A DNA stretch of 64,000 bases from Siphonobacter sp. SORGH_AS_0500 (GTDB lineage Bacteria > Bacteroidota > Bacteroidia > Cytophagales > Spirosomataceae): assembly GCF_002838835.1 (NCBI RefSeq), contig NZ_NHPP01000005.1:248001-312000 (forward strand), read 5' to 3'. Below the pieces are notes generated by a model that was not told the DNA's origin, did not search any database, and worked only from the letters and a program-made list of their open reading frames with translations. Both the position numbers and the translations under genes were made by a program. This document shows positions 2,563 to 46,656 of the stretch, piece by piece; position 1 is the stretch's first letter; the number at the start of each line of letters is the position of its first letter.

Positions 2563-5500
2563 TTAGAAAGAAGCGTTTAAGCCGAAGAAAAAGCTTGTTA
2601 CCGGAGGAAGATTAGCGTAGTTATTCGTGCGGTAATACTCGGGATCAACGCCCGCTTTATTTTTCACCCAAATCAGACCCAGGTTACGAGCCGTTACGTT
2701 CAAACTGGCAGATTTGACGGGTAACTTTTTTAGTAATGATTCGCCCAGTTGGTAACCTAGTGAAAGTTGCTGAAAGCGAATATGACTGGCACTCTCCGTG
2801 AGAAGATCGGATAATTTATATCGGTTTACGCTGTTATAACTTATGTTGGCCAGACCGGGTACGTTGGTGAAAGCTTCGTCCCCGGGTTTTTGCCAGCGAA
2901 GAGCCAGATCTTTCTGAGTTCCCATCAGTCCTGAAAGAGCGGTAGCCTGATAGTCAGGATAGTTATCTATTGAAGGACGACGGAAGACGTGTCCCATGGC
3001 ATAGGTAAACCGAACCGCCAGCGTCCAGCCCTTGTATGAAAAGTTATTAATGAAAGCTCCAAAATAGGGTGCCGTCGTCCGACCCACATATACCAAGTCT
3101 TCACGAGTTAAGCTATTGACACCGACTTGATCCGAAACGATTTCTCCACTTTTATTATAAATCTGTCCTTGTCCGCGGTTATCAAGGCCAGCCCAGCGAT
3201 ACGCATACAGGTAATCCGTAGGCATTCCGTTTAGAAATACATTACTCAGGATCTGACCCACGGTAGTCTGGTTAAATCGGGTATCGGTAACTTTATTGGT
3301 ATTGTAAGAAACGTTGAACGCAGAGGACCATCGGAATCCCCGGTATTGAATTACTTCTGCTTTCAAGCCTAGCTCATAACCATGATTTTCCATGGATGCC
3401 GAGTTAAACTTAAGCGTAGACCAGCCGTAGGTAGAATTGTAAGGAAACTGTCCGAGAATATCCGTAGATCTTTTCTTATAAACATCAAAGTTTCCCGAGA
3501 GGCGATTGTTAAGCAGTGCAAAATCGAGTCCTATGTTACTACTTGCCGTTTTTTCCCAGCTTAATTGACTATTGGCGGGCGTTGAAATGCTGGCATAAGC
3601 TTCATTTGTGAGGTTATCAGCTCCAAACGTATTAATTAAGGTGCTGTTGGAGGTAGCGGTTGGAATGATTCCGGCTATTCCATACGTGAGGCGAAGCTGT
3701 AAATCGTCAAAAAACGAGACGGTATTCATGAACGATTCGGACTTGATATTCCACTTTACGCCCGTAGACCACAGGGGACGGGCCCGGCGACTCCGTGAAA
3801 TGCCGGCGAGCGAATAATCATCAAAACGAATACTAGCCGATAAAGAATAGCGATTATTAAGAAATGAAAGTCCAGCATTACTGTAATACGACAGGTACCG
3901 CATGCGGTCATAAGTAATTGCTCCGTCGTTATAGCCAAGGATGCTGCTATATCCGTCAATGGTGGTGTAAGCAACAGAAGGATTAAAGGCCAGTGAACTA
4001 CGGGTATCGGCATTGTATCCGTAACGCGTTTGCTGTTGGGCATTATTGAAGGTCTGCCGAATTTCACTGCCCGCTACCATGTTTAACTGAGCAAACTGAT
4101 GCCAGCTCTTGTTGATATTGAACTGTCCACGCAACGAATAACTGTCATTAATCTGGTTTCTGCTTATCATCGACCTCCGAACGGTATGCCATATACGATG
4201 CTGCCCGTAGTGGGGCTGATGCTGGTGGCATAGTTGAGTCGGTTTCGCATGTTGTAACTTTGCAATTCGTCAAGGCTCACCCCGTTTACCAGATTTCGCT
4301 GCCATTGTCCGGCTACAGTTAGATCGAGCCAATCCGTAAGCTTACCGGTTAAGTCCGCTCCAAAGCGAAGGCGATTTTCCTGCGTGGTGTATTTCGAATA
4401 ATTCAATTCATCAATAGGATTATACCCATAGGGCAGGTAACCCTTCTTTTCAAAAGCCTGGGCGACATCCTGCCGATACACGTAATACCGTTGAATGTGA
4501 TTTCCCTGAGCGTCTTCGAGTAACTCATAGGGACGAAGGCCCAGATTACTTGTGGTAATGGCATTAATAGCCGCTGAATTATTGATGCTATTACTAATGT
4601 TATAATTGAGGCTGGTGTTGAGTCGAAGGCGGTTCTGAAAAAACTGGTTACCCAAATTAGCGGTCACAAAGTAACTTTCGGATTGATTGCTGCGAAAAAC
4701 GGGAATATCCTTGCTGTAATTCGTTGAAAGGTAATAAGTGCTATTCGGCCCACCTCCTGAAAGAGAGAGGTTATACTGCTGGGAAATTGCGTTTTGTAAA
4801 AGCAGTTTACGAATTTGACCCTGATTATTAATCCCCGCAAGAGCACTTAAGGCCGAATCCCGCTGACTAACCGTTGCTGTGCCCCGATCCACCCGGAACA
4901 TCCATTCCAACGCATCACTGAGGGGACGATTCTGGTTGAAATTCATCCAGGAAGAATCCCATTTGGTTGGGTCAGAATAAAAACCACGGTCTTTGAGCTC
5001 TTTTTCAAGAGCGATGTATTCCGCACTGCTCATGGTTGTTAAACTTGACAAATCAGCGGGACGAGAGATGCTCAGGTTCGTACTAAAATTAATGGAAGAG
5101 GTATTGGGCCGGCCCTTTTTGGTTTCAATCACGATTACGCCGTTGGCGCCTGTGCTCCCCAGATGGACGTAGCGGCGGCATCTTTCAGAACGGTGATGGA
5201 GGCAATGTCTTCTGGATTGTAACGACTTAAAATGGCACCCGCCGTATACTGGGAAGTACCACGGCTGGTTAACTCAGGATCAATGGCCGGGAAGCCATCA
5301 ATGACAATGAGTGGATTGGTATTTGCACCTGATCCAAAAGAATTTACACCCCTAATCTGGATAGTGTTCTTGCGGACATTGAAGTTCACGCCAGGCATGG
5401 CTCCTTCCAGACGCTCCATCAGGTTAATGCTGGGAACATCTTTAATTTCTTTGGTTACCTGGCTAAAAGAACCTGTAGCCCGCTCTTTTGGAATTTTCTG

Positions 5501-6129
5501 ATAACCCGTCGAGAGAATTTCAATTTGTTTTAATTCCTGCGTGTTTTCTTCCAGGATGACGTTAATCATGGTTCGGTTACCAACGGCCACCCGCTGCGTA
5601 ACCATCCCGACAAAAGATACCGTAAGGTGCTGGGTGGGTTGCGTGAGCCGAAGCGTATATTGACCGTCGCTATTGGCAGTCACGCCGACATTTCCCCGGT
5701 CGGATTTAATCGTTGCTCCAATCAGTGGTTTGCCGTGACTGTCGGTAATCGTGCCGCGAATGGTCTCAATGTAGGCAGACTCTGGCTCGACGGTTTCTGT
5801 ATAACCAGGTGCGGAAGTCTCCACTCGGTTCTTCGAGGGTTGGTCACGGGTATCTTTAATCAGGGTGTAGTAATTGTGCTGAACGTATAGAAATAAGAGT
5901 TTATTGGGGTAGAGAATTTCCTTTAGTACATTCTCTACTGGCTGGTTTTTTGACAGCGGCGTTTTGAGCTGAACATACATATTATCGGTCAAGTGTTCGG
6001 CGTAGGAAAACTTGGTTCCGTAAAAAGCTGGATTTTGACCAGAGCCTGGTTCAGGGTAATCCGTTGCTGAGCGAAGGCAACCGGACCCGTTAGGAGTAAG
6101 CAGACAAGGAACAGTAAGGGTTTTTTCAT
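2563..6129 (-). CDS. SusC/RagA-type TonB-dependent transporter with STN domain, three frame breaks
   Basis: TonB-dependent outer-membrane importer, about 1190 residues when the frame is restored. Order: signal peptide (MKKPLLFLVCLLLTGPVAFAQQ, ATG at 6129), STN domain (LNQALVKIQ, FYGTKFSYAEHL), CarboxypepD_reg-like domain (RGTITDSHGKPLIGATI), plug (NPLIVIDGFPA, SITVLKDAAATSIWGAQ) and a 22-strand type barrel ending in a terminal Phe. Breaks lie at about 6025-6030, 5146-5152 and 4167-4175; one added base at each restores family sequence, for example WGAQGANGVIVIETKKG at the second. The STN domain normally contacts FecR, which is encoded 4 nt upstream, so ligand-controlled expression through FecR and an unlinked ECF sigma factor is likely. 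The alternative is a genuinely decayed gene, but conservation between the breaks argues against it. Confidence 0.88.
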
Positions 6130-7550: not shown

Positions 7551-10241
7551 ATGCGATTTCTTTGGGTTTTAATCCTGATTTGTGGGGTTTGGTCGTGGGC
7601 TAGTGCTCAGGTGCAGGTGCGAGGTCGAATTCAGGATTCGGACACTCGGGTGAATCTGTCGGATGCCAGTGTTACCCTGTTTACATTTTCGGATTCCGTT
7701 CTGGTGAAAGGAGCTCGCAGTAATGAAGCTGGGCAGTTTATCCTTTCGGGTGTTACGAAAGGCAAATACCATCTGGTCATTAGCTACGTAGGTTATCAGA
7801 ATTATAGTTCAGTTCTTCAGGTAAATACTTCGGATATTCAGCTAGACACTATTCCACTTCTCACCCAAGCCAGTACCTTAGCTGAGGTGGTTATTCGCCG
7901 GCAGGCACCGCCGGTGACGGTTAAAAAAGACACGATAGAATATAATCCAGAAGCTTTTCAGACGGAGCCCAGTGCGGTTATAGAAAAATTACTCGGCAAA
8001 TTACCCGGCATTACGGTCGATAAAGACGGAAATATCAAGGCTCAGGGCCAGGATGTGCCGAAGATTCTGGTGGATGGGCAACCATTTTTTGACGGTGATC
8101 CTAAAATGGCAACGAAAAATTTGCCCGTTGATATAGTCGAGAAAATTCAGTTGATTGATCAGAAATCAGAGCGAACCCAAATGTCAGGAATGGATGACGG
8201 GTCGCGGAGTAAAACCATCAACATTGTCACCAAAAAAGACCGACGAAAAGGTTTATTCGGCGATCAGGAATTCAGCATTGGCCCCGATCAGAGTGAAAGA
8301 AATCCGCGATATGGGGTTCGACTCAATCTAAACCGTTTTCAAGAATCGCAGCAATTTTCAGTAATTGCTCAGGCAGATAATACCAACAGTGGCCCCGGCA
8401 GTGGTTCCTCTATTAATCGAACGTTAGTAGGGGGAGTAAATTATCAAAATCGTTGGGGCAAGAAAACAGACCTGGGAGTCAACTACCGAGCTAATCGGGT
8501 GAAATCCCTTAATGACCAGCAAAGCATTCGCACGTATGCACTGCCCGATACCTCGTATCAGGTGCGGGAATCGAGTTCGTCCCATGCTGGAAACACCACC
8601 CATTCGCTAAATCTCCATTTTAACCATGAATTTGATTCGCTGACCAGTTTTCGTTTGAATTCGAATGTCTCGCTTCTGCAATCCGGTAATCTTTCCCATC
8701 GACAGTCACAAACGTTTCCCATAGGCTCAGAATTTCTGAATCCGATTAATCAAAGTAGTACTGAAAATACAACGGATAATCAAAGTTTGAATGGTTCGGT
8801 TAACGCTTTCCTGAATCGAAACTTTCACAAAAAAGGGAGAAACGTAATGGTCACCTATACGCTTTTTCTGAATCATCAACAAAATGAAGGATTAACGAAG
8901 TCTACGAACGAATTCTTTGGTCAGCGACAAAACCAGACGATTAATCAGGAAAATGAGCAAACGACCCGTTCTTCCCGTCATCAGGTATATGTTTCATACA
9001 GTGAACCGCTTTCGGAAAAAAACCGACTTGAGTTTCATTACCGATTCCAGAAAAATCCCTCGTATTCCAATCGGGAAGTTCGCAACTATAACGAAACAAC
9101 GGGCAGGTATGACCGCTTCAATGACTCCCTGTCCAATCGTTTTCGGTCGAGTTACCCCAGTCATGCAGCGGGCGTATTATTCCAGCGAAATCAAGGCCAG
9201 AATCTTTTCAATCTGGGAATGGATGTCCAGCAGGCAAGCCTTAGCAGTAGATCTACGTCGCAGAATATTACTAAAGACTTTATCAGTCTGTTACCCACAG
9301 CCATGGTAAGTTTTAAAGTAAAAAAGGATCGTTACCTCCGGCTTCATTATCAGGGGCAGACGCAAGCCCCAACCGTAGATCAGTTGCAGCCCGTGGCTGA
9401 TAATACAAATCCTTTACTCATTCGACTGGGTAATCCCGACTTGAGGCAGGAATTCCATCATTCGATGAACTTGAATTATAACTCTTTTAATTCGACGACT
9501 TTTGAGAATTTCTTTCTTAACATTAATGCTAATCAGGTCACCAATAAAATTATACAATCGGTCCGTTTTGATGAGCAGGGCGTTCAAACGACGCTTCCCC
9601 TGAATACCAACGGCCATTACATGGTATCGGGTAATGTTAATTATGGACGTCAGCTTGAGTTTCTGAAATTACAGGTTAATACAGGCTCTTCCATTAACTA
9701 TAACCGCAGCCTGACTCTGGTCAATGGCCAGGTTAATCAAGCTAATTCTTTACTGATCAGTCCCGAACTACAATTAAATTCTTCGTATCAGGAACGTTTG
9801 GGATATAACCTACGGACCATGCTGACGTACCAGTCCGCTCGCTATTCCCTGCAAAGTCAGCGAAATACATCGTTTATCAATACCTCCGTATCCGCAAGCT
9901 TTTATTACGAGTGGGATTTTTACCTGAGGCTTAGCACGGATGCGACCTATCAACATTACGGCGGAAATACGGCCGGTCCGGCCCAGCGATATACGCTCTG
10001 GAACGTAACGGTTAGTCAGAAATTTTTGAAAAAACAGCAGGCGGAAATGCAGATTCGGGTGTTTGATTTACTTAATCAGAACCGGAGCGTGACACGTAAC
10101 GTCACGGAACTCTACACGGAAGAACGGCAGAATCGGGTGTTATCCCGGTATTTTCTGGTAAGCTTTATGTATCATTTCCGAAATTTTGGGGGAATGCCAA
10201 CGCCTAATCCAGAACGTAAAACCAGGTCAGCAAGGCGTTAG
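7551..10241 (+). CDS. Outer-membrane beta-barrel protein with CarboxypepD_reg-like N-terminus (TonB-receptor-like)
   Basis: Protein of 896 residues. A signal peptide (MRFLWVLILICGVWSWASAQ) is followed by a CarboxypepD_reg-like Ig domain at about 22-105 (VRGRIQDSDTRVNLSDASV, YVGYQNY). Next come plug-like elements (AVIEKLLGKLPGITVDKDG, ILVDGQPFF) and a long barrel rich in Asn, Ser and aromatic residues (OMP_b-brl_3 type). The family sits in the outer membrane. Many members lack SusD partners and their substrates are unknown; none is suggested here. Gln/Asn-rich loops such as NQTINQENEQTTRSS fit surface-exposed regions. It is monocistronic, divergent from fecR, and its stop overlaps the convergent cbiB stop by 4 nt, so no separate terminator fits between them. 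Confidence 0.85.
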   Translation: MRFLWVLILICGVWSWASAQVQVRGRIQDSDTRVNLSDASVTLFTFSDSVLVKGARSNEAGQFILSGVTKGKYHLVISYVGYQNYSSVLQVNTSDIQLDTIPLLTQASTLAEVVIRRQAPPVTVKKDTIEYNPEAFQTEPSAVIEKLLGKLPGITVDKDGNIKAQGQDVPKILVDGQPFFDGDPKMATKNLPVDIVEKIQLIDQKSERTQMSGMDDGSRSKTINIVTKKDRRKGLFGDQEFSIGPDQSERNPRYGVRLNLNRFQESQQFSVIAQADNTNSGPGSGSSINRTLVGGVNYQNRWGKKTDLGVNYRANRVKSLNDQQSIRTYALPDTSYQVRESSSSHAGNTTHSLNLHFNHEFDSLTSFRLNSNVSLLQSGNLSHRQSQTFPIGSEFLNPINQSSTENTTDNQSLNGSVNAFLNRNFHKKGRNVMVTYTLFLNHQQNEGLTKSTNEFFGQRQNQTINQENEQTTRSSRHQVYVSYSEPLSEKNRLEFHYRFQKNPSYSNREVRNYNETTGRYDRFNDSLSNRFRSSYPSHAAGVLFQRNQGQNLFNLGMDVQQASLSSRSTSQNITKDFISLLPTAMVSFKVKKDRYLRLHYQGQTQAPTVDQLQPVADNTNPLLIRLGNPDLRQEFHHSMNLNYNSFNSTTFENFFLNINANQVTNKIIQSVRFDEQGVQTTLPLNTNGHYMVSGNVNYGRQLEFLKLQVNTGSSINYNRSLTLVNGQVNQANSLLISPELQLNSSYQERLGYNLRTMLTYQSARYSLQSQRNTSFINTSVSASFYYEWDFYLRLSTDATYQHYGGNTAGPAQRYTLWNVTVSQKFLKKQQAEMQIRVFDLLNQNRSVTRNVTELYTEERQNRVLSRYFLVSFMYHFRNFGGMPTPNPERKTRSARR

Positions 10242-11166
10242 GATAAAGCGTAGAAAATCATAGCAATAAGCAGGATCATCCATAAACAGGTCAAATGGTT
10301 AATACGGCTGACCTGTTTGATTTCTTGATCTTCAATCATTCGTTCCGTCGCTCCGATGTAGGGCTTATCCACGAGCTTCCCATGATAGACATTGGGTCCG
10401 CCGAAACGGCAATTTAAAATACCCGCCAAAGCTGCTTCGGGGTAACCCGAATTCGGACTTTTATGCTGGTTGCCGTAACGGAAAACGAACGTAAGCCCGC
10501 GTTTGCTGAAGGTAACCAGGATCATTAATAAGGCCGTTAATCGGGCGGGAATGAAGTTGGCAACGTCGTCCAGGCGAGCGGCAAATTTGCCGAATTGCTC
10601 GTACCGTTCATTGCGATACCCAATCATCGAATCCAGCGTATTAATCATTTTGTAGGTCATCATTCCGGGAACCCCCGCAAGAGCATAATAAAACAAGGGA
10701 GCAATTACGCCATCGCTTAGATTTTCGGACATGGTTTCCAGTACCGCAATTCTGATTTGCTGAGGGCTTAAGTTTCGGGTATCGCGACCAACAATCCGCG
10801 AAAGCTGGGTTCTCCCTGCTTCAACACCGCCTTCATTCAAGGCTTTAAAAACGTTTTTCCCTCGCTGATTAAGTTGTGATTCGCCAGTCCGTACCACACC
10901 ATAATTCCGTTGAAAATCAACCAGATACTTTGAGGAAGGAGTTGGAGTAAATGGTTAATGCAAGTAAAAAAAGCAAACACCAACAGACCTAAGAACAGGC
11001 TCATACCCAAGCCTTTCCAGAACCGATGGTTACCTGTATTGAATCGTTTTTCTCCTGCATAAATAGCATTACCAAACACCCGAATGGGATGCGGCCAGTG
11101 ATCAGGATCACCGATGAATAAATCCAGTGCATAGCCGATGAATAAAGCGGCAAGGCTTAAAACCAT
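10238..11166 (-). CDS. cbiB: Adenosylcobinamide-phosphate synthase CbiB, one frame break
   Basis: Integral membrane enzyme that attaches the aminopropanol (phosphate) arm to adenosylcobyric acid in late cobalamin synthesis. The N-terminal part carries the family start YALDLFIGDPDHWPHPIRVFG; the C-terminal part carries NEGGVEAGRTQLSRIVGRDT, SENLSDGVIAPLFYYALAG and a final membrane helix. The two parts are in different frames. One missing A in the run at 10854-10858 (read on the minus strand as GGAAAAACG) explains this, because restoring it gives SEGKNVFKALNEGG. Full length is about 309 residues, typical of CbiB. It overlaps the end of the upstream cobD-like gene by 10 nt and is last in the cobalamin operon. 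Confidence 0.9.
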
Positions 11167-16376: not shown

Positions 16377-17291
16377 ATGGTTAGCTCTATGTACTTAAAA
16401 CCCAGCGACGGTCTTTCAAAGGAACTACGAATGTATCGAGGTCTTTTTCTGGGAAGGGCTTTTCAATCAATCCCTATTTCTGAAGAAAAAGCAACGGTAT
16501 TTGCCGACTGGCTTAGTAATAATCGACTGGAACAGAATCGTTTGTCGGAGTTATCGATTGATTATGCATTAATCTGGACTCGGGCTGATGAGGCTTTAGT
16601 ACAGGCTACTATTACCGTCGAAGAAAGAATGGAATGGTTGCAAAAACTCGAACAACGATTTCAGGAGAAGACGATTTTATTAGCGAAAGAAAAAACGCAG
16701 GAAGCACTTTTACGTTTTCCAAATGATACTCAATTACAGCAATTAGTGGCTATACTTAAACTGAATGATTATACTCAACTAAGAAAGGAATTAGGACTAA
16801 TTCGAAGGCAGTATAATGCTGCTATTGAAGAGTTTATAAAACTGGTCTATTATAAATTTTATCGCCATGTTTCGAATAATAGCCCAGTTGATATTCGGGA
16901 TGATACGGACACGTTACTCACTAAAGTCCTGCATAAATTCATGGATGCCATTGAGCGGGGAAGTTATCAGGGGCCAGAGAAAGCTACGATATTAGTTTAT
17001 ATTCATCCGATGATGGTGCATGGTTGGATTGATATACTCCGTACCCGAAAACCAACCGGTGATTTCCCGGAATTGACGGAAGAGTCGGTAGATGATACAA
17101 AAGCATTTGTAGAAGATGCTTTAAAACAGCTAGGCCAGCCCTGTCAGAGTATCATCATTGAAAGGGATATTCATGGGTGTTCCTGGGAGGAAGTGGCCGA
17201 ACGAATCTCCATTTCTAAAGGGCATGCCAAAAACTCCTACCGGGGCTGTCAGGAACAACTGCGAAGCATTTTGGTTCAACGAGGCTGGTAA
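16377..17291 (+). CDS. ECF-like sigma-70 factor with long N-terminal extension
   Basis: Protein of 304 residues. The C-terminal half reads as a sigma-70 family core. A region-2-like segment (FIKLVYYKFYRHV, DTLLTKVLHKFMDAI, YIHPMMVHGWIDILRTRK) lies at about 150-222, and a region-4 helix-turn-helix (IIERDIHGCSWEEVAERI, KGHAKNSYRGCQEQL) at about 258-298. About 145 charged, helical residues precede region 2, which is unusual for an ECF factor and may be a sensing or partner-binding module. It is followed after 40 nt by a membrane protein with an anti-sigma-like N-terminus and then by an exported caspase. The sigma assignment is by pattern and context; region 4 is the clearest part. Confidence 0.72.
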   Translation: MVSSMYLKPSDGLSKELRMYRGLFLGRAFQSIPISEEKATVFADWLSNNRLEQNRLSELSIDYALIWTRADEALVQATITVEERMEWLQKLEQRFQEKTILLAKEKTQEALLRFPNDTQLQQLVAILKLNDYTQLRKELGLIRRQYNAAIEEFIKLVYYKFYRHVSNNSPVDIRDDTDTLLTKVLHKFMDAIERGSYQGPEKATILVYIHPMMVHGWIDILRTRKPTGDFPELTEESVDDTKAFVEDALKQLGQPCQSIIIERDIHGCSWEEVAERISISKGHAKNSYRGCQEQLRSILVQRGW

Positions 17292-17331
17292 TAGATAAAC
17301 GGACTAATGACATCACTAATTTTAGCGTATA

Positions 17332-18077
17332 ATGGCATTTGATTTTGACCAGAGAGATATTGAGGCTTATGTGAAAAACCAGATGCTAAAGTCTGAACGT
17401 GAGGACTTTGAGCAAAGGCTACAACAGGAGCCAGAGCTACGTAAACGATTAGACACCTATCAGCGTCTTCATCGGGGACTGGAAGAATTGAGTTTGGAAT
17501 ACCAGGTTCAGCAAATAAGCCCGACCGTTGAAAAGGAGGGTAATCACGAGGATGCAACGCCCGTGCGATCCTTGAAATCCATGAAGCGTTATGCGTGGCT
17601 TGTGGCTTCACTGGTAGTACTTCTGGGAATAGGTTACGTTATGCTGATGCAGGTTCGTGCGTATCGGCAGGATCAGGTGTTTGAAGCTTATTACCAACCC
17701 GAAGCCGAAAGCGTGGGGATGACCAAGGTGTTTTCTGTAGTGATTTACCTGCGTCCATTCGTCAGTCGTATTACAACGGCTTATTCGAACAAACGCTACG
17801 TTTGACCCAATCGAGATTAAAGCTGAGTTGTGCCTTATACTATCACGGTCTGGCTAATTTGGCCCTGAAAAATGAAGAAGCTGCTATTTCAGATTTCAAA
17901 AAGGTGTTAAGCAAAGAACCCGTAGGAATGCTCAAAGAAAGAACGGAATGGTATCTGACGTTAGCGTATTTATTAAATCATCAGCGGGAAAATGCTCTTG
18001 ATTTATTAAAGCGAATGGCTGGTAATAAGCAACATTCTTACCAATCTTCTGCCCGGAAAATGCTGGAATCTTTATAG
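17332..18077 (+). CDS. Membrane anti-sigma-like protein with C-terminal TPR region, one frame break
   Basis: About 248 residues once one base is restored in the G run at 17715-17718. Reading on from there gives DQGVFCSDLPASIRQ and then NGLFEQTLRLTQSRLKLSC. The N-terminal segment (DIEAYVKNQMLKSEREDFEQRL, then EPELRKRLDTY) has the spacing of bacterial anti-sigma N-termini. A single membrane helix lies at about residues 87-107 (WLVASLVVLLGIGYVMLM) preceded by basic residues, which predicts a cytoplasmic N-terminus. The periplasmic part has TPR-like helices (CALYYHGLANLALKNEEAAI). Sitting between a sigma factor and an exported protease, it would suit a protein that holds the sigma factor at the membrane. 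Function is inferred. Confidence 0.65.
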
Positions 18078-18084
18078 GGAAGCT

Positions 18085-20025
18085 ATGGCAAAAAGCTTGA
18101 TTCTTCACCGCCTCTGGGTGTTCGGATGGCTCTTTCTGGGTTCAGCATCCTGGAGTTTGGCGAAAAATCCATCCAAAAAAGCCCTACTTATTACTATTGC
18201 TCATTACGCGGACAAGAATTGGGCTCCCTTAAATGCAGATCGCGATCGGCTGGTACTGACAGAGACCTTGCAACGTCAGGAATTTGTCAGTATCCTGACC
18301 TGTATCAACGCTCAGGCTACTCGAAAAGGCATTACTCAATCCCTGCAACAGCTTTATAATCAGGCCCAGCCGGGGGACAAGTTAGTAATTCATTATTCTG
18401 GGCACGGCTGTCAGTTAAAGGACGATACGGGTGACGAAGCCGATGGCAAAGACGAATGCCTGGTACCTTACGACGCTCCTAAGCGTTTTGATGCCTCTTA
18501 CTCGGGGATGCTTCACCTGAGGGATGATGAATTAGGCACCTGGCTGGATCGTTTGCGGGAAAAGGTAGGTTCGTCTGGGCAAGTGGTGCTGTTTCTGGAT
18601 TCCTGCCATTCGGGAACGGCCTCTCGCGGAGAGTCGCAAGTGAGGGGGGAAAGTGGGATGACCAGCGATTTTCTTTCCACCGAAAATGGCTCGGGTTTGT
18701 TTGAAAGCCGCTCGGGGCGAGGCTTAGGTAAGCTTGTATTTATCAGCGGAGCGAAATCAACGCAGCCTAATTACGAAACCAAAGATGACGAAGGCAAGAA
18801 AATAGGGTCGCTAAGCTATGCCATTAGTAAAGCTTTCGAACAGTTGGAAAAAGGGACGGTTTATCGTGTTTTTTTCGAAGTAATTTCAACCATTATGGCC
18901 CAAAAGGCCCCGGGTCAAACGCCTCAGTTAGAGGGAGATTCCGAAGAATTGGTTCTGGGTGGGATGGGGGTTACTCGTCCGACATTTTATTCTATAACTG
19001 GATTTGTTGACCAGTTTCGTACCCAAGTAACGGTGGCGGCAGGAACACTTTCGGGCTTGTTCAAGGGAGCGAAAGTTCGATTACGTTCGGTTGATAGCCC
19101 TCGAGGCGACGACGATCTGGAAGGAGAAGTAATAGAGAGTAGTGCTTTTCAGTCCAAGGTTCGTTTAAAGCAGCCACTTCCTACTTCTTCAATGGATTTC
19201 TACAAAGTTTATGAATACTCAAAAGCTTTGGATAACTGGCAGCTTTTCCTCAAAACGAAGTTGTCAGAGAATCGGCAACGTACTCTTTATCAGAGACTTG
19301 AGCATAATAAGGCCTTGGTGTGGGTTAGCGATTCTGCGGAGGTTCTGGTAAAAGAACAAAGGGATACTCTTTTCATCATTCACCAGCAGGATGCAGAGGT
19401 TTGGCAAAAGTTGCCGTTGAACGACCAATGGGTTTATAAAACGGAAGAGGCCCTGCAAAATTACATTCAGGCGAAATTGTTGCGGGAGTTAACCCTCCAG
19501 TCTTCGAATTCTTTTCAGGCAAAACTCGAACTCGTACCCGTTCGTCTGGAAAAAGACGAAAAGGGCAACTACAAAGTTGTAGAAAAACGAACAGCTTCGG
19601 GTGGTTACCCTATTTTTTCCACGCAGGATCAGGGTTGGCTGAGCATCACTAATACGGGCAAGACGGCTTTTTACTTCAACCTGATCGATATTGAGCCTCA
19701 GGGTAAAACATCGGTTCTTCTACCGGGAAAAGGATGGGGCAAGGAAGGGCTTTACCTTAAGCCGCAACAAACACTTCATTACCCAATTGAAACGATTTCC
19801 CCGCCTTATGGTATCGAAATGTACAAGCTATTGATGGCCTCCCAGCCCTTTGACTTACGAATGGCTGTACTTAATCGGGGCAATATCCCAGAACAAGAAT
19901 CTGACCATCCTTATCAGAAGCTTTTTCGGTCGAATTTTCGTGGAAGTAAACCCGATGAAATGTCCTTAGATCAGTTAGGAACAGCGTCCTTTGTTTTTGA
20001 AATCATCCCGGCCAGGAAAAAATAA
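18085..20025 (+). CDS. Exported caspase-fold (C14, metacaspase-like) protease
   Basis: Protein of 646 residues with a signal peptide (cleavage near residue 26, WSLAKNPS). The caspase p20-like domain spans about 30-290: it begins KKALLITIAHYADKNWAPL, has catalytic His107 in VIHYSGHG and catalytic Cys174 in LDSCHSG, and an acidic GDEADGKDECLVPYD segment typical of metacaspases. Both catalytic residues are intact. The remaining 350 residues include a DUF4384-like stretch (WLSITNTGKTAFYFNLID, TSVLLPGKGWGKEGLYLKP) that may bind ligands. Metacaspases cut after Arg or Lys. The gene starts 7 nt after the anti-sigma-like gene, so the three genes form one operon and the protease probably acts in the periplasm, possibly on its neighbour. 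Confidence 0.9.
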   Translation: MAKSLILHRLWVFGWLFLGSASWSLAKNPSKKALLITIAHYADKNWAPLNADRDRLVLTETLQRQEFVSILTCINAQATRKGITQSLQQLYNQAQPGDKLVIHYSGHGCQLKDDTGDEADGKDECLVPYDAPKRFDASYSGMLHLRDDELGTWLDRLREKVGSSGQVVLFLDSCHSGTASRGESQVRGESGMTSDFLSTENGSGLFESRSGRGLGKLVFISGAKSTQPNYETKDDEGKKIGSLSYAISKAFEQLEKGTVYRVFFEVISTIMAQKAPGQTPQLEGDSEELVLGGMGVTRPTFYSITGFVDQFRTQVTVAAGTLSGLFKGAKVRLRSVDSPRGDDDLEGEVIESSAFQSKVRLKQPLPTSSMDFYKVYEYSKALDNWQLFLKTKLSENRQRTLYQRLEHNKALVWVSDSAEVLVKEQRDTLFIIHQQDAEVWQKLPLNDQWVYKTEEALQNYIQAKLLRELTLQSSNSFQAKLELVPVRLEKDEKGNYKVVEKRTASGGYPIFSTQDQGWLSITNTGKTAFYFNLIDIEPQGKTSVLLPGKGWGKEGLYLKPQQTLHYPIETISPPYGIEMYKLLMASQPFDLRMAVLNRGNIPEQESDHPYQKLFRSNFRGSKPDEMSLDQLGTASFVFEIIPARKK

Positions 20026-20144: not shown

Positions 20145-20719
20145 ATGAGAGCCAGACTCGCACGAAACAAAAAGGAAATCTCAGAAGCTTACGCACTGGT
20201 GGAGCGGCGTTACTGGGAGACCCACCAGATTGAAGCCAGTAAATTGCATACGAGTCAACGCTACCGTACGAAAGTGCTGGTGGTATATGACCAGAATAAC
20301 AAGCTTCTCGGTACGGCATCTCTTATGTTCCTACGAATGGAATTTTTCCGGGAGAAGATCTTTTTCAGGTAGATTTTCACAAATCTTCATTACCGCTCGA
20401 CTGGAACCGCACCGTAGAGTATGGACGCTTGGCAATTGAGCCTCAGGCCCCTCCTGAAGTACTTCTTTTGATACAAAAAGCTTTTTTGTATTACGGAAAA
20501 CGCTGGAATTTATCGGGATTCGTTGCCATTGTCCGAACGGCTTTAGGACGGACCCTGCGGAAGTCATTCCAGTTCGAAACCATTCCTACTTGCCTTAATG
20601 ACAGAAAAGAAGGCAGTTTTCTTGAAAATCTTCCCTACCTCGGTACTTACCCAAAGAATGAAAATCTCTACTTCATTGCAGTGACTTTCCAAATGATGGC
20701 TGAAGGCCTCAGCCGATAA
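20145..20719 (+). CDS. GNAT/autoinducer-synthase-like acyltransferase, one frame break
   Basis: About 191 residues if one missing base near 20319-20325 is restored, which joins KLLGTAS to SYVPTNGIFPGEDLFQVDF and on to the second half (EYGRLAIEPQAPPEVLLLIQ). The layout is an N-terminal helix with RRYWETHQIEAS, a central sheet (KVLVVYDQNNKLLGTAS), the E-x-x-R-like EYGRLAI strand and a long helix. It resembles N-acyl amino acid synthases of the FeeM group and LuxI-type enzymes. It was not recognised by a diagnostic motif, so the family is tentative. It is preceded by a 119-nt gap after the caspase gene and probably has its own promoter. Confidence 0.5.
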
Positions 20720-20807: not shown

Positions 20808-21458
20808 ATGAAAAATTACTTTAAAGTAGCCTTCACTTTATTGCTCTTTTATGGCTTGCCTGTTTTGATTTATTTCCTACGTAATCACGACTTAAGCTTA
20901 ACTACTTGGCAACTAATACCAGTAGTCGTCGGATGTGCAATGCTGTTGATAACCCAGCCAACTATCACCAAAGCAGATTTTGAAAACACGAAGGACCGAG
21001 GTTCAATGATTATTCTTTTAGTAACCAGCTGGCTAGGGCAATGGGTTTTGATGATAGACTGGATTTTTATAAGAAATATGCCTGATTTTCAGGAAAATAA
21101 TTATGCATTCTATCTGGGACTTATGGGTATGATTACGGGCTTGACCTTTCGATACATAGCCATTCGAGAACTTAAAGAAAACTTTACGAATACCGTTGGA
21201 AAGATCACCCCAACGTTAATAAAAACGGGGCCTTATAGCTATTTAAGACACCCTAGTTACACAGGAGCATGGCTATTTCTGGTAGCAACGGGTGTGACTT
21301 TACAAGGCTTTTGGAGTACAATGATTATTCTGATCCTTATTACGGGATCATACGTCTATCGTGTTTCAATTGAAGAGAAGTTTTTAATTAGCATTTTTGG
21401 AGAAAAATACACTGACTATCAAAAACATACCTGGAAATTGTTTCCATTCATTTGGTAA
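20808..21458 (+). CDS. Membrane methyltransferase of the isoprenylcysteine carboxyl methyltransferase (ICMT/PEMT) family
   Basis: Protein of 216 residues with about five hydrophobic segments. The conserved C-terminal part reads TLIKTGPYSYLRHPSYTG, then EEKFLISIFGEKYTDYQKHTW, which is the SAM-binding signature of ICMT, PEMT and related NnrU-like proteins (RHP, EE, Y-x-x-Y). It would methylate a lipid or small hydrophobic substrate at the inner membrane; the substrate cannot be told. It is downstream of the acyltransferase-like gene with an 88-nt gap. Confidence 0.85.
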   Translation: MKNYFKVAFTLLLFYGLPVLIYFLRNHDLSLTTWQLIPVVVGCAMLLITQPTITKADFENTKDRGSMIILLVTSWLGQWVLMIDWIFIRNMPDFQENNYAFYLGLMGMITGLTFRYIAIRELKENFTNTVGKITPTLIKTGPYSYLRHPSYTGAWLFLVATGVTLQGFWSTMIILILITGSYVYRVSIEEKFLISIFGEKYTDYQKHTWKLFPFIW

Positions 21459-23707: not shown

Positions 23708-23982
23708 TCAATAGTGACAGTAATATAATATTAGTTTATTTTTAAAAAGGTGCCTTAATAAGCAAAAAGTTTGTTTTAAAATTAAGATTAGTTTTATTTT
23801 GAATATATGATTTATAAAATTATTAGAATATAAATAATACAATACTATCAATATATAGGCGTGTTTGGTAACTATCATTAAGAATGAATTTATCTTGCTA
23901 ATAAACTTGAATTATTTAAGTCCTTAGGCTACCGTTGCCTATTCCTTACATTAACGAGGAGCATCAGAAGAGAATTAAGAGT

Positions 23983-25335
23983 ATGAGGTTTGAACATTGC
24001 AAAACGGAATTTATTAGACGATATTTATTGTTTTTTATTGCAGTCGGTCTAATTACAAAGGCGAATGCTCAGGTGGGTTATTTAAGGTGGAATGACCTAT
24101 TTGAAATCAGTCTAGCCAAAGGTGTAAACAGAGAAGGAATAATTGCAGACCTGGGTTTTGTATACGAAAAGGCATTTATCAATTCTGAAACGCATAAACT
24201 TTGCATTGAATTTAAAAGAACCATGCAGGGGAATGAGGGAGAATGGAATGAAAGCATTACGTACTGTGAGGGAAGTCCACGTTTAACTTTTGTGATCGAA
24301 AACCCGACTCAGGTTTTTAAAATGAGAAGAGATTTAGTCCAACAATTTGGCTTTGTAGATTCCGGTAGCCATAGCCAACGTAGGGATAAAACCTTTAGAA
24401 CAACGTTAGTAAAAGGCCATAGTCGCGTTGAAACGATTGGTAAATATTTGAATGGGAAAACGATTTATTTCATCGTTTTAACTATTGTTTCAGAAGATGT
24501 TAATGCAGATGTGAAACCCTATCCCCTGGCACCGAGAGGTACAGAAATAGGAGACGCTCCCGTAGGAACTATTTCTAAAACTATTGAAGGAAACTATTAT
24601 GCTTTACTGATTGGAATTAATGACTATCAGGTTAGTAAAGGGCTGAATCCTTTGAGTTATCCTATTGCTGACGCGACCATGCTTAAGGAAGTATTGCTGA
24701 GTAACTATACGTTTGAACCGGAAAATGTTCAGTTACTGACCAATCCTAACCGGGCTAGTTTGCTGCATGCTTTTGAACAATTGCGAAGAAAAGTAACGGA
24801 AAAAGATAATGTTCTGATTTATTACGCAGGGCATGGCCATTGGGACGAGGAAAGTAAGGCGGGTTACTGGTTACCTGTGGATGCCGAGCGGGAGTCCGAT
24901 GCCGAATGGGTGAGCAACAACGATATTGTAACGAAGCTCAGGGTAATCAAATGCCGACACCTATTAGTGGTTGTAGATGCGTGCTTCAGCGGCACTCTTT
25001 TTCAGACCAACCGATCAACAAAAACGGCGGGTGAGATTTTGAACGCAAAAGTGGCTGAGCGGTATCAAACCACCCGCAGTCGTCACGCTTTAACCAGTGG
25101 AGCTAAAGAAGAAGTACCCGATCAAAGCATTTTTGCCCAGCTTCTGGTCGAAAACCTACGGCAATCCCCTCTCCCTTATTTACAGGGAAGTTACCTGTAT
25201 TTTCAGATATTACAGGCACTGGAGTCCAATCCTGGGTTTTCAGGAATTAAGCAACAGCCTCAGTACGGTATTATTTACAACGTTGGTGATGACGGAAAGG
25301 GTGGAGATTTTATATTTATTCGTCAAAAAAAGTAG
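23983..25335 (+). CDS. Exported caspase-fold (C14) protease linked to a two-component system
   Basis: The ATG at 23983 is chosen over an upstream TTG at 23935 because it gives a signal peptide (RRYLLFFIAVGLITKANAQ). The protein has about 450 residues. Residues of about 30-200 form a domain not recognised here (LRWNDLFEISLAKGVNREG). The C-terminal half is a C14 caspase domain: YYALLIGINDYQ, His284 in LIYYAGHGHWDE, acidic YWLPVDAE, and Cys334 in LVVVDACFSGTLF. Both catalytic residues are intact. It differs from the first caspase in domain order, since the protease domain is C-terminal. It stops 29 nt before the response regulator, so caspase, regulator and kinase are probably cotranscribed. Confidence 0.88.
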   Translation: MRFEHCKTEFIRRYLLFFIAVGLITKANAQVGYLRWNDLFEISLAKGVNREGIIADLGFVYEKAFINSETHKLCIEFKRTMQGNEGEWNESITYCEGSPRLTFVIENPTQVFKMRRDLVQQFGFVDSGSHSQRRDKTFRTTLVKGHSRVETIGKYLNGKTIYFIVLTIVSEDVNADVKPYPLAPRGTEIGDAPVGTISKTIEGNYYALLIGINDYQVSKGLNPLSYPIADATMLKEVLLSNYTFEPENVQLLTNPNRASLLHAFEQLRRKVTEKDNVLIYYAGHGHWDEESKAGYWLPVDAERESDAEWVSNNDIVTKLRVIKCRHLLVVVDACFSGTLFQTNRSTKTAGEILNAKVAERYQTTRSRHALTSGAKEEVPDQSIFAQLLVENLRQSPLPYLQGSYLYFQILQALESNPGFSGIKQQPQYGIIYNVGDDGKGGDFIFIRQKK

Positions 25336-25364: not shown

Positions 25365-26036
25365 ATGAACAATTATCCCATTATTCAATTATTAATTGTG
25401 GAAGATCAGCATATATTAGCTGAATCTTTTCAAAGGTTATTCTCTGAACAGAGCCAATTTAACGTAGTAGGTATTTGTACAAATAAAGTAGAAGCGTTAC
25501 GAGCCTTATCCTTACTCAAAGTAGATATTGTTTTACTGGATTTGAGTATTCCAGAACATGGCAAGTTAACACCGAATGTAGATCGCGGCTTTCAGATTCT
25601 GGAATATCTTCAGGAGCATATGCCACACGTTAAAAGTATTGTTCTATCCAGTTATAATGACTATAGCCTCATTAAAAAATCCATTCAACTTGGAGCGATG
25701 GGCTATTTGCTTAAAAATACCTCATTGACAGAGTTATTAAAAGCTATCCAGCAAGTGCATTCCGGCACCAAGTATTTGCAAAATCAGGTTGAAGAGATAC
25801 TTCACAGAAAAGATCTCAGAAATGAAACTAAGATTACTGAAACGGTACAGTTAACCCGGCGTGAAAAGGAAGTACTAACATTCATTGCTCAAGGGTTAAC
25901 CGATATGGACATTGCCGATGAAATAGGACTTAAAAAATTTACTGTCAGTGAATTTAGATCACATTTATTAAGAAAATTTAGTGCAAAAAATGCGGCAGAA
26001 TTGGTGAATAAAGCACACCGACAGGGTATATTATGA
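25365..26036 (+). CDS. LuxR/NarL-type response regulator
   Basis: Protein of 223 residues. The receiver domain has the acidic pair in LLIVEDQHILAES, phospho-acceptor Asp59 in VDIVLLDLSIPE, Ser in SIVLSSYND and Lys in GYLLKNTS. The C-terminal LuxR-type helix-turn-helix reads LTRREKEVLTFIAQGLTD and KKFTVSEFRSHLLRKF. It is the partner of the kinase that follows: its stop and the kinase start overlap as ATGA. Likely targets include its own operon with the caspase. Confidence 0.95.
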   Translation: MNNYPIIQLLIVEDQHILAESFQRLFSEQSQFNVVGICTNKVEALRALSLLKVDIVLLDLSIPEHGKLTPNVDRGFQILEYLQEHMPHVKSIVLSSYNDYSLIKKSIQLGAMGYLLKNTSLTELLKAIQQVHSGTKYLQNQVEEILHRKDLRNETKITETVQLTRREKEVLTFIAQGLTDMDIADEIGLKKFTVSEFRSHLLRKFSAKNAAELVNKAHRQGIL

Positions 26037-27841
26037 AAAAACAATACTTATTGCTTCTTTTCTTTATATGTAAATTGATAGCTGTTTCTTATGCACAGGA
26101 TACCTTACTTGTTTCTAATAAATTTACCAACGCTGACTTAATACCAGTTACGTTTTTTTCTGAAGATTCCTTAGGGGGATCATGGAAAAAAATACCGGGT
26201 GAAAACATGGGTAGCCGTAAAGAACCAGTTTATTTTCAAAGTTTTCTGAAAAATACAGGTTCACATCCCATTACTTTAATGTTTGTTACGAAAGGGATTG
26301 ACTTTCTTGAAGGCTATATTCAGGGAAGTCGCCTTCAATTCCTTCCTCAAATAGGCACCGTACAACCCCTCTGTAAACGAATTTACCCAACGAATTTTCT
26401 TATTTATACCTTCACCCTAGAGCCCGGTAAAACGAATCGTTTGTTTCTAAGAGTTAAAGAAAATAACTATAAGCTTTCCTTGAGTCCATTTTATTTATTT
26501 GAAAAAACGGTAGGGCAGGAGTTTATTTCCAAACAAACCTTATATCAGCACTTGTATGTAGGGGGAATGATGTTAATGTTATGTTTTGGAATTGCCCTGA
26601 TGCTGTTGTTTCGAAGTAGACTTTATTTCTTATACAGTGCCTGCGTAAGTACATCTTTGATGGTCATGCTTATGCAGAATGAATATTATTATTACTGGAC
26701 CTCAGCAATTCCTGAAATAGTCTACAATAAAGATGTGTTCGGGATTTTAGTAGTTTCTATTGCTATTTGTTATTTCTTCTTCACAAAAGAATTTCTAAAA
26801 ATAAATAAACCCTCCGACCAGTTTTGGTTGAAAATAGGCTATGTGCTGATCGCTATTCTTCTGATTCTATTGATTACAACCTATATCGCAGATCTACGGT
26901 TATTTGAATTAAGGGCCGTGTTTTATCCCTTTTTAGATGGACTGTTTTTAGTTACCTTACTATTTGCGGTTAAATCCTTCAGGAGAAAATATAAACCTGC
27001 GTGGCTTTTTGCTTTTGCCACAGTTCCTGTAATTGTCATTGGTTTTATAGAATCACTTTCAAACTGGCATCAGATTGCCTCCAGTCAGTTATTCAATGCT
27101 TATTACATGGGAACCCTCTGGGAAATGTTCTTACTAACGCTTGGCATTGCGTATCGTTTTTACCTGGATCAGCTGCAATTATTGCGAGTGAAGGAGACCC
27201 AGTATCGCGTTGAAATGCAGACTCGTCACGAAGAACGGGAACGCATGGCCCGCGATCTTCACGATAAAATGGGGGCGTTACTTTCTGCCATTCGACTGAA
27301 TGTCGGGCTGTTGAAAAAAATGTCTTCGGAGAATATGAAAGACGTTTTTGATCAAACAGATCAAATGCTTTTACTGGCCTCGGAGGAATGCAGAAATATT
27401 GCTCACAATATTTACCCAGCGGCTCTGCTGCAATTAGGCCTATTGGAAATGATTACCGAAATGTATGGTCAGATCGAATCGCCCAAATTTACCATTCATT
27501 CCGAAGGCTTCGAAAAAGACCGTCTCGAAACGGTAATGGAAGTGACCTTGTACAGCATCATTCAGGAAACGATTAATAATATTTTCAAACACGCAGAGGC
27601 CAAGGAAGTTACGATACAGCTTACCTGGTATAAAAAGCAGATTAACCTGATTATTGAAGATGATGGCAGGGGATTTGAGCCGTCACTGGTAAAAAAGCGG
27701 GGGATGGGGCTTCAAAGCATGAAAAGAAGGGTTGCTATTATGAATGGCAAAATGGAAATAGATTCCAAACCCGGCCGGGGAACAATCATACTGGTAAAAA
27801 TTAATTATTCTGCCGGTCGGACTTCACGATTTCTAAGCTAA
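26033..27841 (+). CDS. 7TMR-DISM-like sensor histidine kinase (HisKA_3 type)
   Basis: Protein of 602 residues. A signal peptide or first helix is followed by an extracellular beta-rich sensor (about 25-165) and a block of about seven membrane helices (about 180-375). Next comes a dimerisation domain with His410 in ERERMARDLHDKMGALLSAI, and a HATPase domain with N box ETINNIFKHAEAKEVTIQL, G1 EDDGRGFEP and G2 GMGLQSMKRR. The layout matches 7TMR-DISM kinases paired with NarL-type regulators. Kinases of this type sense periplasmic or membrane signals; the nearby exported caspase and OmpA-domain protein suggest a cell-envelope cue. Its 4-nt overlap with the regulator implies translational coupling. 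Confidence 0.93.
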   Translation: MKKQYLLLLFFICKLIAVSYAQDTLLVSNKFTNADLIPVTFFSEDSLGGSWKKIPGENMGSRKEPVYFQSFLKNTGSHPITLMFVTKGIDFLEGYIQGSRLQFLPQIGTVQPLCKRIYPTNFLIYTFTLEPGKTNRLFLRVKENNYKLSLSPFYLFEKTVGQEFISKQTLYQHLYVGGMMLMLCFGIALMLLFRSRLYFLYSACVSTSLMVMLMQNEYYYYWTSAIPEIVYNKDVFGILVVSIAICYFFFTKEFLKINKPSDQFWLKIGYVLIAILLILLITTYIADLRLFELRAVFYPFLDGLFLVTLLFAVKSFRRKYKPAWLFAFATVPVIVIGFIESLSNWHQIASSQLFNAYYMGTLWEMFLLTLGIAYRFYLDQLQLLRVKETQYRVEMQTRHEERERMARDLHDKMGALLSAIRLNVGLLKKMSSENMKDVFDQTDQMLLLASEECRNIAHNIYPAALLQLGLLEMITEMYGQIESPKFTIHSEGFEKDRLETVMEVTLYSIIQETINNIFKHAEAKEVTIQLTWYKKQINLIIEDDGRGFEPSLVKKRGMGLQSMKRRVAIMNGKMEIDSKPGRGTIILVKINYSAGRTSRFLS

Positions 27842-44947: not shown

Positions 44948-46656
44948 ATGAAACTTCGCTTACTAGCTTTGAGTTTACTTTCCCTGCCTGCCCTGAGTCA
45001 ACGGGTGTATCACGATGATCATCACCACGATCCAGAAGGTCGGGCGATGAATCACGATCATCTTACTCATATTCAGGAATATCGTAAAGAAACGGTTTAT
45101 GTACATCATCTTCCGGCTCCACAAGTAATGTCGGGAATTGGTACTTCTGATCTGAAAATTCAAACGAAATCTTCTTTAACTCAAACCTATTTCAATCAGG
45201 CGTTGCCTTACTGCATGGTTTCTGGGATTTTGAGGCGTATCGGGCTTTTAAAGAAGCGTCCCGTCAGGATTCAACCGCCCTCATGCCTTATTGGGGTATT
45301 TATAGTGCAATTGGTTCCATGGAAGGGGATGACTTTGCGGAAGACCGGATTCGGGCTGTGGCAAAAATTAAAGCGTTGAAAGATAAGGCCCCTCCGCATG
45401 AAAGGCGTTATGCGGAAGCCATTCTGGCCCGCGAGGTATCGGGGGCAAACCACAAAAAGGAGTATGAACGTATTCTGGAGTTACTGGTTCACGAATACCC
45501 CGACGATGTAGATGCCAAGCTCTTTCTGGCTTTAAGCAAAATGAGCGGCTATGATCTCAAGCTGAATCCCAGAGAGGGAACGATGTATGCCGAATACCTG
45601 CTGCGAGACGTACTAAAATCGCATCCCGATAACGCCGGAGCTCATCATTACTGGATTCACCTGAAGGAAAATTGTTGCCCGGAAGAGGCTCTTGAAAGCT
45701 GTGAAAAATTACCTAAACTCGGTCCGGCTTCGAGTCATCTGGTGCACATGCCGGGTCACGTGTACTATAAGTTAGGCGAATACCAGAAAGCCTTCGATAC
45801 ATTCAAAGCTTCCGTCGCGGTGGACTCCGTTTATATGAAAAAGCAGAATATTCAGGAAGTTGATGCTTGGAATTACATTCACAATATCAATTACTTATTG
45901 GCCAATTGTGCCGAAGATGGACGTTACGCAACGGCATTGTACTATGCCGAAAAGCTCCAGAATATGCCTGCTTCGAAAGAACGCAAACGCAAGTACGAAG
46001 GTCGTTTCTTTTATCAGGGCATTCTTGCTCCCGTAAAAATGGAAATCTGTTTTGGGCATTACGACCGGGCGGCCCAACGTCTTAAAGCCATTTTGCCCAC
46101 TGACAGTTTGTATTCAGTCAAAGCAATGGCGTATAAAGATGGACTATATTATTTTTCTGCAGGAATGGACGCCATCAAGCGAAATAAAATTGAGGAAGCT
46201 CAGAAGTTGGTTGATGCACTGGATGCTACGCTTTGGCGAAATGTCAACCAGTTTAGCGAAGCAGATATTATCAATTCGCGGCGGGTGAATGACTTAAATG
46301 TAGCTTCGCTGGAATTACAGGGACTGATCAAAAACGCTCAGGGACATACCAAAGAAGCGATTGCCTTATTGGAAAAAGCAAAGGTCAAGGAAGAAGAATT
46401 AGGGTATAGCGAACCGCCTTCGTATGCCCGTCCGGTATTGATTAGCCTCGGCGAAGTGCAGTTACAGGCCAAAAATTACGATCAGGCTATTAAAGCGTAT
46501 ATGGATTTATTGCATAAACATCCCAATTCAGCCAACGGACTCTGGGGCTTGTATAAAGTATATCGAAAAAAAGGCGATTCGACCAAAGCCAAAGAATACG
46601 CCGATTTGCTAGCGAGAATCTGTCGTTATGGCGATAAGAGTCTGTATCCGCTTTAA
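44948..46656 (+). CDS. Exported TPR protein with His-rich N-terminus, one frame break
   Basis: About 570 residues when one missing C near 45205-45208 is restored; this joins TYFNQALP to LLHGFWDFEAYRAFKEAS and then MPYWGIYSAIG. A signal peptide (LLALSLLSLPALSQ) is followed by a His-rich stretch (YHDDHHHDPEGRAMNHDHL) that could bind metal. Then come TPR helices, including the family segments SSHLVHMPGHVYYKLGEY and SLGEVQLQAKNYDQAIKAYM. It is a known family of periplasmic TPR proteins of unclear role. The gene is divergent from susC and shares a CTATAG-type operator; it is followed after 84 nt by a TlpA gene. Confidence 0.8.

Follow-up and report, generated by a model that had tools for sequence, protein, structure and literature searches.

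A conserved gene linkage in Bacteroidota joins an exported caspase homolog to sigma-like and membrane anti-sigma-like proteins

The stretch of DNA analysed here, called the window, comprises 64,000 nucleotides of the genome of Siphonobacter sp. SORGH_AS_0500 (contig NZ_NHPP01000005.1, positions 248,001 to 312,000). It contains a triad of adjacent, co-oriented genes on the plus strand, which encode a sigma-like factor (16377-17291), an anti-sigma-like protein with a predicted single membrane span and tetratricopeptide repeats (TPRs; 17332-18077), and an exported caspase homolog (18085-20025). The linkage of an exported caspase with a sigma/anti-sigma gene pair is well supported across Bacteroidota. 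The triad belongs to a broader pattern in this phylum, in which the gene of an anti-sigma protein with TPRs is located beside that of a caspase, of a CHAT-TPR protein, of both, or of neither. We speculate, with somewhat less than even confidence, that the locus encodes a module for signalling across the membrane, in which the periplasmic metacaspase cleaves the anti-sigma protein and frees the sigma factor.

The gene triad of the window

The three genes contain the following features, all on the plus strand.

16377-17291, plus strand: sigma factor like those of the sigma-70 or extracytoplasmic function (ECF) type, 304 residues (TIGR02937, AlphaFold2, Foldseek, ortholog in Siphonobacter aquaeclarae)
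17332-18077, plus strand: anti-sigma-like single-span TPR protein, frame-broken (two open reading frames; tblastn with the intact S. aquaeclarae protein; alignment of intact relatives)
17593-17652, plus strand: predicted membrane span of this protein, about residues 88-107 (sequence; hydropathy of relatives; helix 80-114 in the S. aquaeclarae model)
17653-17725, plus strand: predicted periplasmic linker between the span and the TPRs, which holds the frame slip and, in relatives, the Arg-Gly position (coil 115-126 in the S. aquaeclarae model)
18085-20025, plus strand: exported caspase homolog of the metacaspase/orthocaspase type, 646 residues (Peptidase_C14, E=1.6e-17 over residues 31-283)
18085-18165, plus strand: predicted signal peptide, about residues 1-27 (by eye and hydropathy; signal- or lipoprotein-like N-termini in most relatives)
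18403-18405, plus strand: codon of the catalytic His107 (alignment of relatives)
18598-18606, plus strand: codons from Asp172, at the S1-pocket position (Asp211 of TbMCA2), to the catalytic Cys174 (alignment; TbMCA2 residues from PMC4357240)
18985-20022, plus strand: C-terminal part of the caspase homolog with a weak DUF4384-like stretch (residues 523-578; E=0.0035, below cut-off)

An earlier note, made from the sequence of the window, had described these genes as encoding a sigma factor with a 145-residue extension, a single-span anti-sigma-like protein with TPRs, and a caspase with His107, Cys174 and a signal peptide. The arrangement of the genes was confirmed. The caspase assignment holds as well, as the protein matches Peptidase_C14, contains both residues, and starts with a hydrophobic sequence of the Sec type. 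The extension of the sigma factor is about 149 residues long. The description of the middle protein holds for the one span, the weak anti-sigma match and the match to the TPR_6 family, but the protein is not encoded by one open frame in the window. The note had also placed the protease and the TPR part on the same side of the membrane, and the predicted topology agrees with this across relatives. From the signal peptide and the single span, the secreted metacaspase and the TPR part would share the periplasm.

The closest solved structures in the PDB to the caspase homolog are those of metacaspases (7qp0, 4f6o, 4afr). Metacaspases are generally Ca2+-dependent and prefer Arg or Lys at the P1 position of their substrates (PMC4357240). 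The window caspase is of the metacaspase type, so that a basic P1 residue (Arg/Lys) is expected for it.

The sigma core comprises residues 150-298 and matches the sigma70-ECF superfamily model TIGR02937 with E=1.3e-7, which is below the model cut-off. Sigma region 4 of Pfam is matched weakly (E=0.0012) and region 2 of Pfam is not matched in this protein, while the superfamily model, below its cut-off, spans both regions. Residues 1-149 are all-helical in the AlphaFold2 model, which has a predicted local distance difference test score (pLDDT) of 83.7. A Foldseek search with the predicted fold of the sigma factor found ECF sigma structures with a probability of about 1 and E-values no better than 0.005, whereas Foldseek assigned no fold to the extension. 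The ortholog in S. aquaeclarae is 36% identical. At E<1e-10 the window sigma factor matched only in a genome of the same genus, and therefore the sigma gene was followed in relatives by its gene neighbourhood.

The middle protein is divided between two open reading frames, 17332-17805 (157 residues) and 17802-18077 (91 residues), the second of which matches TPR_6 with E=2.6e-4. The N-terminus matches an NCBI 'anti-sigma factor' model with E=1.4e-7, well below the cut-off. The S. aquaeclarae counterpart is an intact protein of 241 residues, whose predicted structure (pLDDT 83.7) matches TPR structures. In tblastn it aligns to frame 1 of the window at 17338-17703 and then to frame 3 at 17694-18074, which places a single-base slip near 17694-17725. 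Other genes of the window are also frame-broken: a FeeM-like synthase gene (20145-20719), cobD (10238-11166), in which two overlapping open reading frames correspond to consecutive sections of a single family, and what is probably the gene of a TonB receptor (2563-5992), in three pieces. The completeness of the assembly is 92.6%, compared with 98-99% elsewhere in the genus. A sequencing or assembly error is the likeliest cause of the frame breaks, because similar slips are scattered over several genes and the completeness is low. Programmed frameshifting was considered for the middle gene and set aside, as S. aquaeclarae has this gene in an unbroken frame and frame breaks also affect several unrelated genes of the window. 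The middle gene is treated here as normally intact, because it is so in relatives. Two overlapping open reading frames at 44948-46656, on the same strand and in different frames, the second of which encodes a TPR protein, are possibly a further frame break.

Conservation of the gene linkage

The triad is found well beyond this genome. The caspase has matches with E<1e-20 in 20 of 150 genomes of the family, and blocks of sigma, anti-sigma and caspase genes were found through it in eight further family genomes (G046, which is S. aquaeclarae, G069, G063, G071, G005, G055, G065, and G056, where a CHAT gene is inserted between the anti-sigma and caspase genes). The family of anti-sigma proteins with TPRs is broader, with matches in 98 of 121 genomes of the family and 143 of 295 of the class. 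Sixty further anti-sigma neighbourhoods contain a sigma gene directly upstream almost everywhere, and in many of them the other neighbour encodes a CHAT-TPR protein.

An independent scan of GTDB genomes, made by caspase alignment alone, provided 50 loci. The scan is a sample and relied on a single peptide pattern around Asp123-Asp130, which fixes those acidic residues by design. In 30 of the 50 loci a sigma gene directly followed by an anti-sigma gene is located within three genes of the caspase, and in 29 of them the genes are all on the caspase strand. A CHAT gene is also present within three genes in 22 of the 30 linked loci. The linkage persists after thinning of the sample: clustering at 70% identity leaves 45 clusters, 26 of them linked, and clustering at 50% leaves 29, of which 16 are linked. 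The gene order is sigma, anti-sigma, caspase in Cytophagales and mostly caspase, sigma, anti-sigma, CHAT in Bacteroidales (for example L194 and L196). Parabacteroides distasonis (L190) retains the order caspase, sigma, anti-sigma, with the CHAT gene upstream on the other strand.

Frequent gene pairs of large Bacteroidota genomes might adjoin without any functional tie, and the 40% of scan caspases that are unlinked are consistent with such a neutral neighbourhood. However, a profile search identified about one to nine such anti-sigma genes per genome, and we therefore estimate the chance of placement within three genes at about 1% at most. The observed linkage is far above this estimate, survives reordering of the genes and spans orders, and a neutral neighbourhood is thus very improbable. 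Distances between the caspases and between the anti-sigma proteins correlate (r=0.80), but shared ancestry alone could produce this, and the correlation was not used as proof of a functional tie.

The catalytic and S1-pocket residues are retained in the linked caspases: the Cys and the S1-pocket Asp172 in 30 of 30, and the His in all 29 sequences that cover the site. Asp147-Asp148, candidate Ca2+-binding residues, align with the Asp-Asp pair of solved metacaspases, and both are present in 29 of the 30 linked loci. The N-terminus is strongly hydrophobic in 26 of the 30, and in two Spirosoma members it resembles that of a lipoprotein. The triad caspase of one locus (L043, 3474-6740) is 1088 residues long and seems to contain additional repeats and a second domain that resembles a caspase. 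Another locus (L031, 2465-6163) contains, convergent with the triad, the gene of a 1233-residue protein with a caspase-profile match and a WD40-like start.

Proposed release of the sigma factor and its alternatives

Based on the predicted topology, the conserved gene linkage and the intact catalytic and S1-pocket residues, a mechanism can be proposed, which extends the suggestion of the earlier note that caspase cleavage of the anti-sigma protein may release the sigma factor. The single-span TPR protein would hold the sigma factor at the membrane through its N-terminal cytoplasmic region. Once a signal is received, the metacaspase would cut the linker that joins the TPRs to the membrane helix, probably after a conserved Arg. 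By analogy with RseA, a cytoplasmic or intramembrane protease would then degrade the truncated anti-sigma protein, and the sigma factor would be freed. The more general claim is slightly more tentative: secreted metacaspases may be dedicated site-1 proteases of the membrane anti-sigma proteins of Bacteroidota, which cut after the conserved linker Arg and thus control transcription across the membrane.

The linker contains a candidate cleavage site. Of 32 caspase-linked anti-sigma proteins, 23 contain an Arg-Gly pair in the first 50 residues that follow the span, and in the S. aquaeclarae model Arg123-Gly124 is part of the coil that joins the membrane helix to the TPRs. The pair is rare where protease neighbours are missing, in the Spirosoma-type clade (3 of 17 by our reading), and there it is not at the equivalent place. 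The motif is suggestive only, because the difference between clades may be a single evolutionary event, and it was rejected as proof of a cleavage site, since it also occurs without a caspase.

Several points weigh against cleavage by the caspase. The Arg-Gly pair is not caspase-specific, as it is present in 15 of 29 anti-sigma proteins linked to CHAT only and in 14 of 35 unlinked ones. The anti-sigma genes of the Spirosoma-type clade (L104-L119) mostly have neither a caspase nor a CHAT neighbour. Among the scan caspases, 20 of 50 are without an adjacent sigma/anti-sigma pair and mostly retain their catalytic residues; therefore, the caspase family has other roles too. The putative sigma and anti-sigma identities in the window are assigned from weak profile scores, and export was judged from hydropathy rather than by a trained signal-peptide predictor. 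We infer cleavage of the anti-sigma protein from sequence.

The caspase may instead be an output of the system. The sigma factor would drive its own operon, the secreted caspase, together with the CHAT protein where present, would act as the effector in a response to envelope stress or in lysis, and another protease would cut the anti-sigma protein. Autoregulation of the operon is common among ECF sigma factors. The unlinked members of the caspase family, likewise exported as judged by hydropathy and mostly with intact catalytic residues, and the many genomes in which the anti-sigma family has no caspase neighbour fit this explanation. On its own it leaves unexplained why one anti-sigma family has two clan CD partners, caspase or CHAT, depending on lineage, and why the linker contains Arg-Gly. 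We consider it unlikely, although it retains appreciable weight.

The exchange of the caspase for a CHAT-TPR partner beside an anti-sigma protein of constant architecture is also what would be seen if the TPR part held or inhibited the protease, so that a signal frees the protease and the sigma factor together. The anti-sigma protein would then restrain both partners rather than being cut. TPRs are protein-binding folds, and the structure model of the S. aquaeclarae protein matches them. However, the conserved linker motif would remain unexplained; we assign this explanation a low probability. A cascade, in which the CHAT-TPR protease cuts the anti-sigma protein, as Csx29 cuts Csx30, after its own activation by the metacaspase, is slightly less probable still. 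The 22 linked loci with a nearby CHAT gene and the many anti-sigma proteins paired with CHAT alone speak for the cascade, but no CHAT gene adjoins the triad in the window or in S. aquaeclarae.

To our knowledge, neither a substrate nor a role is known for most caspase homologs of prokaryotes. The anti-sigma-like neighbour, as both a plausible substrate and a putative sigma inhibitor, offers a direct test of the role of a caspase homolog. The module can be tested because it is present in cultured species, including S. aquaeclarae and a gut commensal. The widespread TPR anti-sigma family could also help to explain the control of ECF sigma factors in Bacteroidetes, because class I anti-sigma domains were found beside only 6% of them in a 2020 survey (PMC7406223).

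Neighbouring genes and known systems

Downstream of the triad, the window contains the following genes.

20145-20719, plus strand: FeeM-like N-acyl amino acid synthase, frame-broken here, a conserved neighbour in the long-sigma form (S. aquaeclarae ortholog matches FeeM with E=1.1e-6; two-frame tblastn)
20808-21458, plus strand: ICMT/PEMT-like methyltransferase, a conserved neighbour in Siphonobacter
23935-25335, plus strand: second exported caspase homolog (Peptidase_C14, E=1.3e-16; S. aquaeclarae ortholog 41%)
25365-26036, plus strand: LuxR-type response regulator (orthologs adjoin the triad in Pseudarcicella and a Cytophagales metagenome-assembled genome)
26033-27841, plus strand: sensor histidine kinase (orthologs adjoin the triad in the same two genomes; 32% over 597 residues)

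The long-sigma form, in which the kinase, response regulator and FeeM-like synthase adjoin the triad, is present in Siphonobacter, Pseudarcicella hirudinis and the Cytophagales metagenome-assembled genome. The signal for the triad may come through these neighbours, because their orthologs adjoin it in other genera too. The second caspase gene is located directly upstream of the response regulator gene, and its S. aquaeclarae ortholog is in the same place. The loci L104-L119 contain a conserved block on the opposite strand, which encodes proteins of about 553, 302 and 747 residues, the last of which starts like a protein kinase.

The earlier note did not know the triad as a described system, and this stands for the form with an exported metacaspase and a membrane TPR anti-sigma protein, of which no description was found in the open-access literature, a coverage outside which most subscription papers and preprints lie. 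Sigma genes near caspase genes are published, and thus only the membrane-topology form appears undescribed, whereas sigma-caspase pairings are already known in other phyla (PMC3501461, PMC8195603). The operon section of the 2012 study reports operons that combine a metacaspase with a sigma-70 gene, from Myxococcus, Anaeromyxobacter, Haliangium, Sorangium, Ralstonia and Fibrobacter, and that section mentions neither an anti-sigma factor nor a membrane topology, and no case from Bacteroidota of the kind described here (PMC3501461). The EACC2-caspase neighbourhoods contain a caspase, an ECF sigma factor and a TPR protein, with a proposed transcriptional output; they differ in that the caspase is coupled to EACC2 and variable effector domains, the TPR protein is DUF1822, and the term anti-sigma is absent from the paper (PMC8195603). 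The window caspase matches the EACC1-associated caspase model partially (residues 32-112) and below the cut-off, and no dedicated EACC-domain model was searched; EACC systems are a poor fit. Proteolytic control of ECF sigma factors by neighbouring proteases, including CHAT, was also proposed for the ECF54 group with CHAT or subtilase neighbours, but that proposal concerns sigma factors without an anti-sigma factor (PMC8999054).

Craspase of type III-E CRISPR systems (Csx29 TPR-CHAT, Csx30 and CASP-sigma) combines a protease of clan CD with an ECF-like sigma factor and its inhibitor, as the triad putatively does, and cleavage of the inhibitor was reported to relieve the inhibition (PMC10028731). 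It differs from the triad in being RNA-guided, with Cas7-11 as the CRISPR effector, in using a CHAT protease instead of a secreted C14 peptidase, and in that Csx30 is not the single-span TPR protein of the triad. Neither a CHAT gene nor an open reading frame of Cas7-11 size is located beside the triad in the window or in S. aquaeclarae, CRISPR arrays not having been searched, and type III-E CRISPR is a poor fit as its identity. The predicted anti-sigma-like protein of the triad resembles RseA of the DegS/RseA/sigma E system in its single span, its putative cytoplasmic sigma-binding end and its periplasmic part, with cleavage expected on the periplasmic side. The site-1 protease of RseA is a serine protease of the DegS type, whereas a cysteine metacaspase is proposed here, and the periplasmic part of the anti-sigma-like protein of the triad consists of TPRs.

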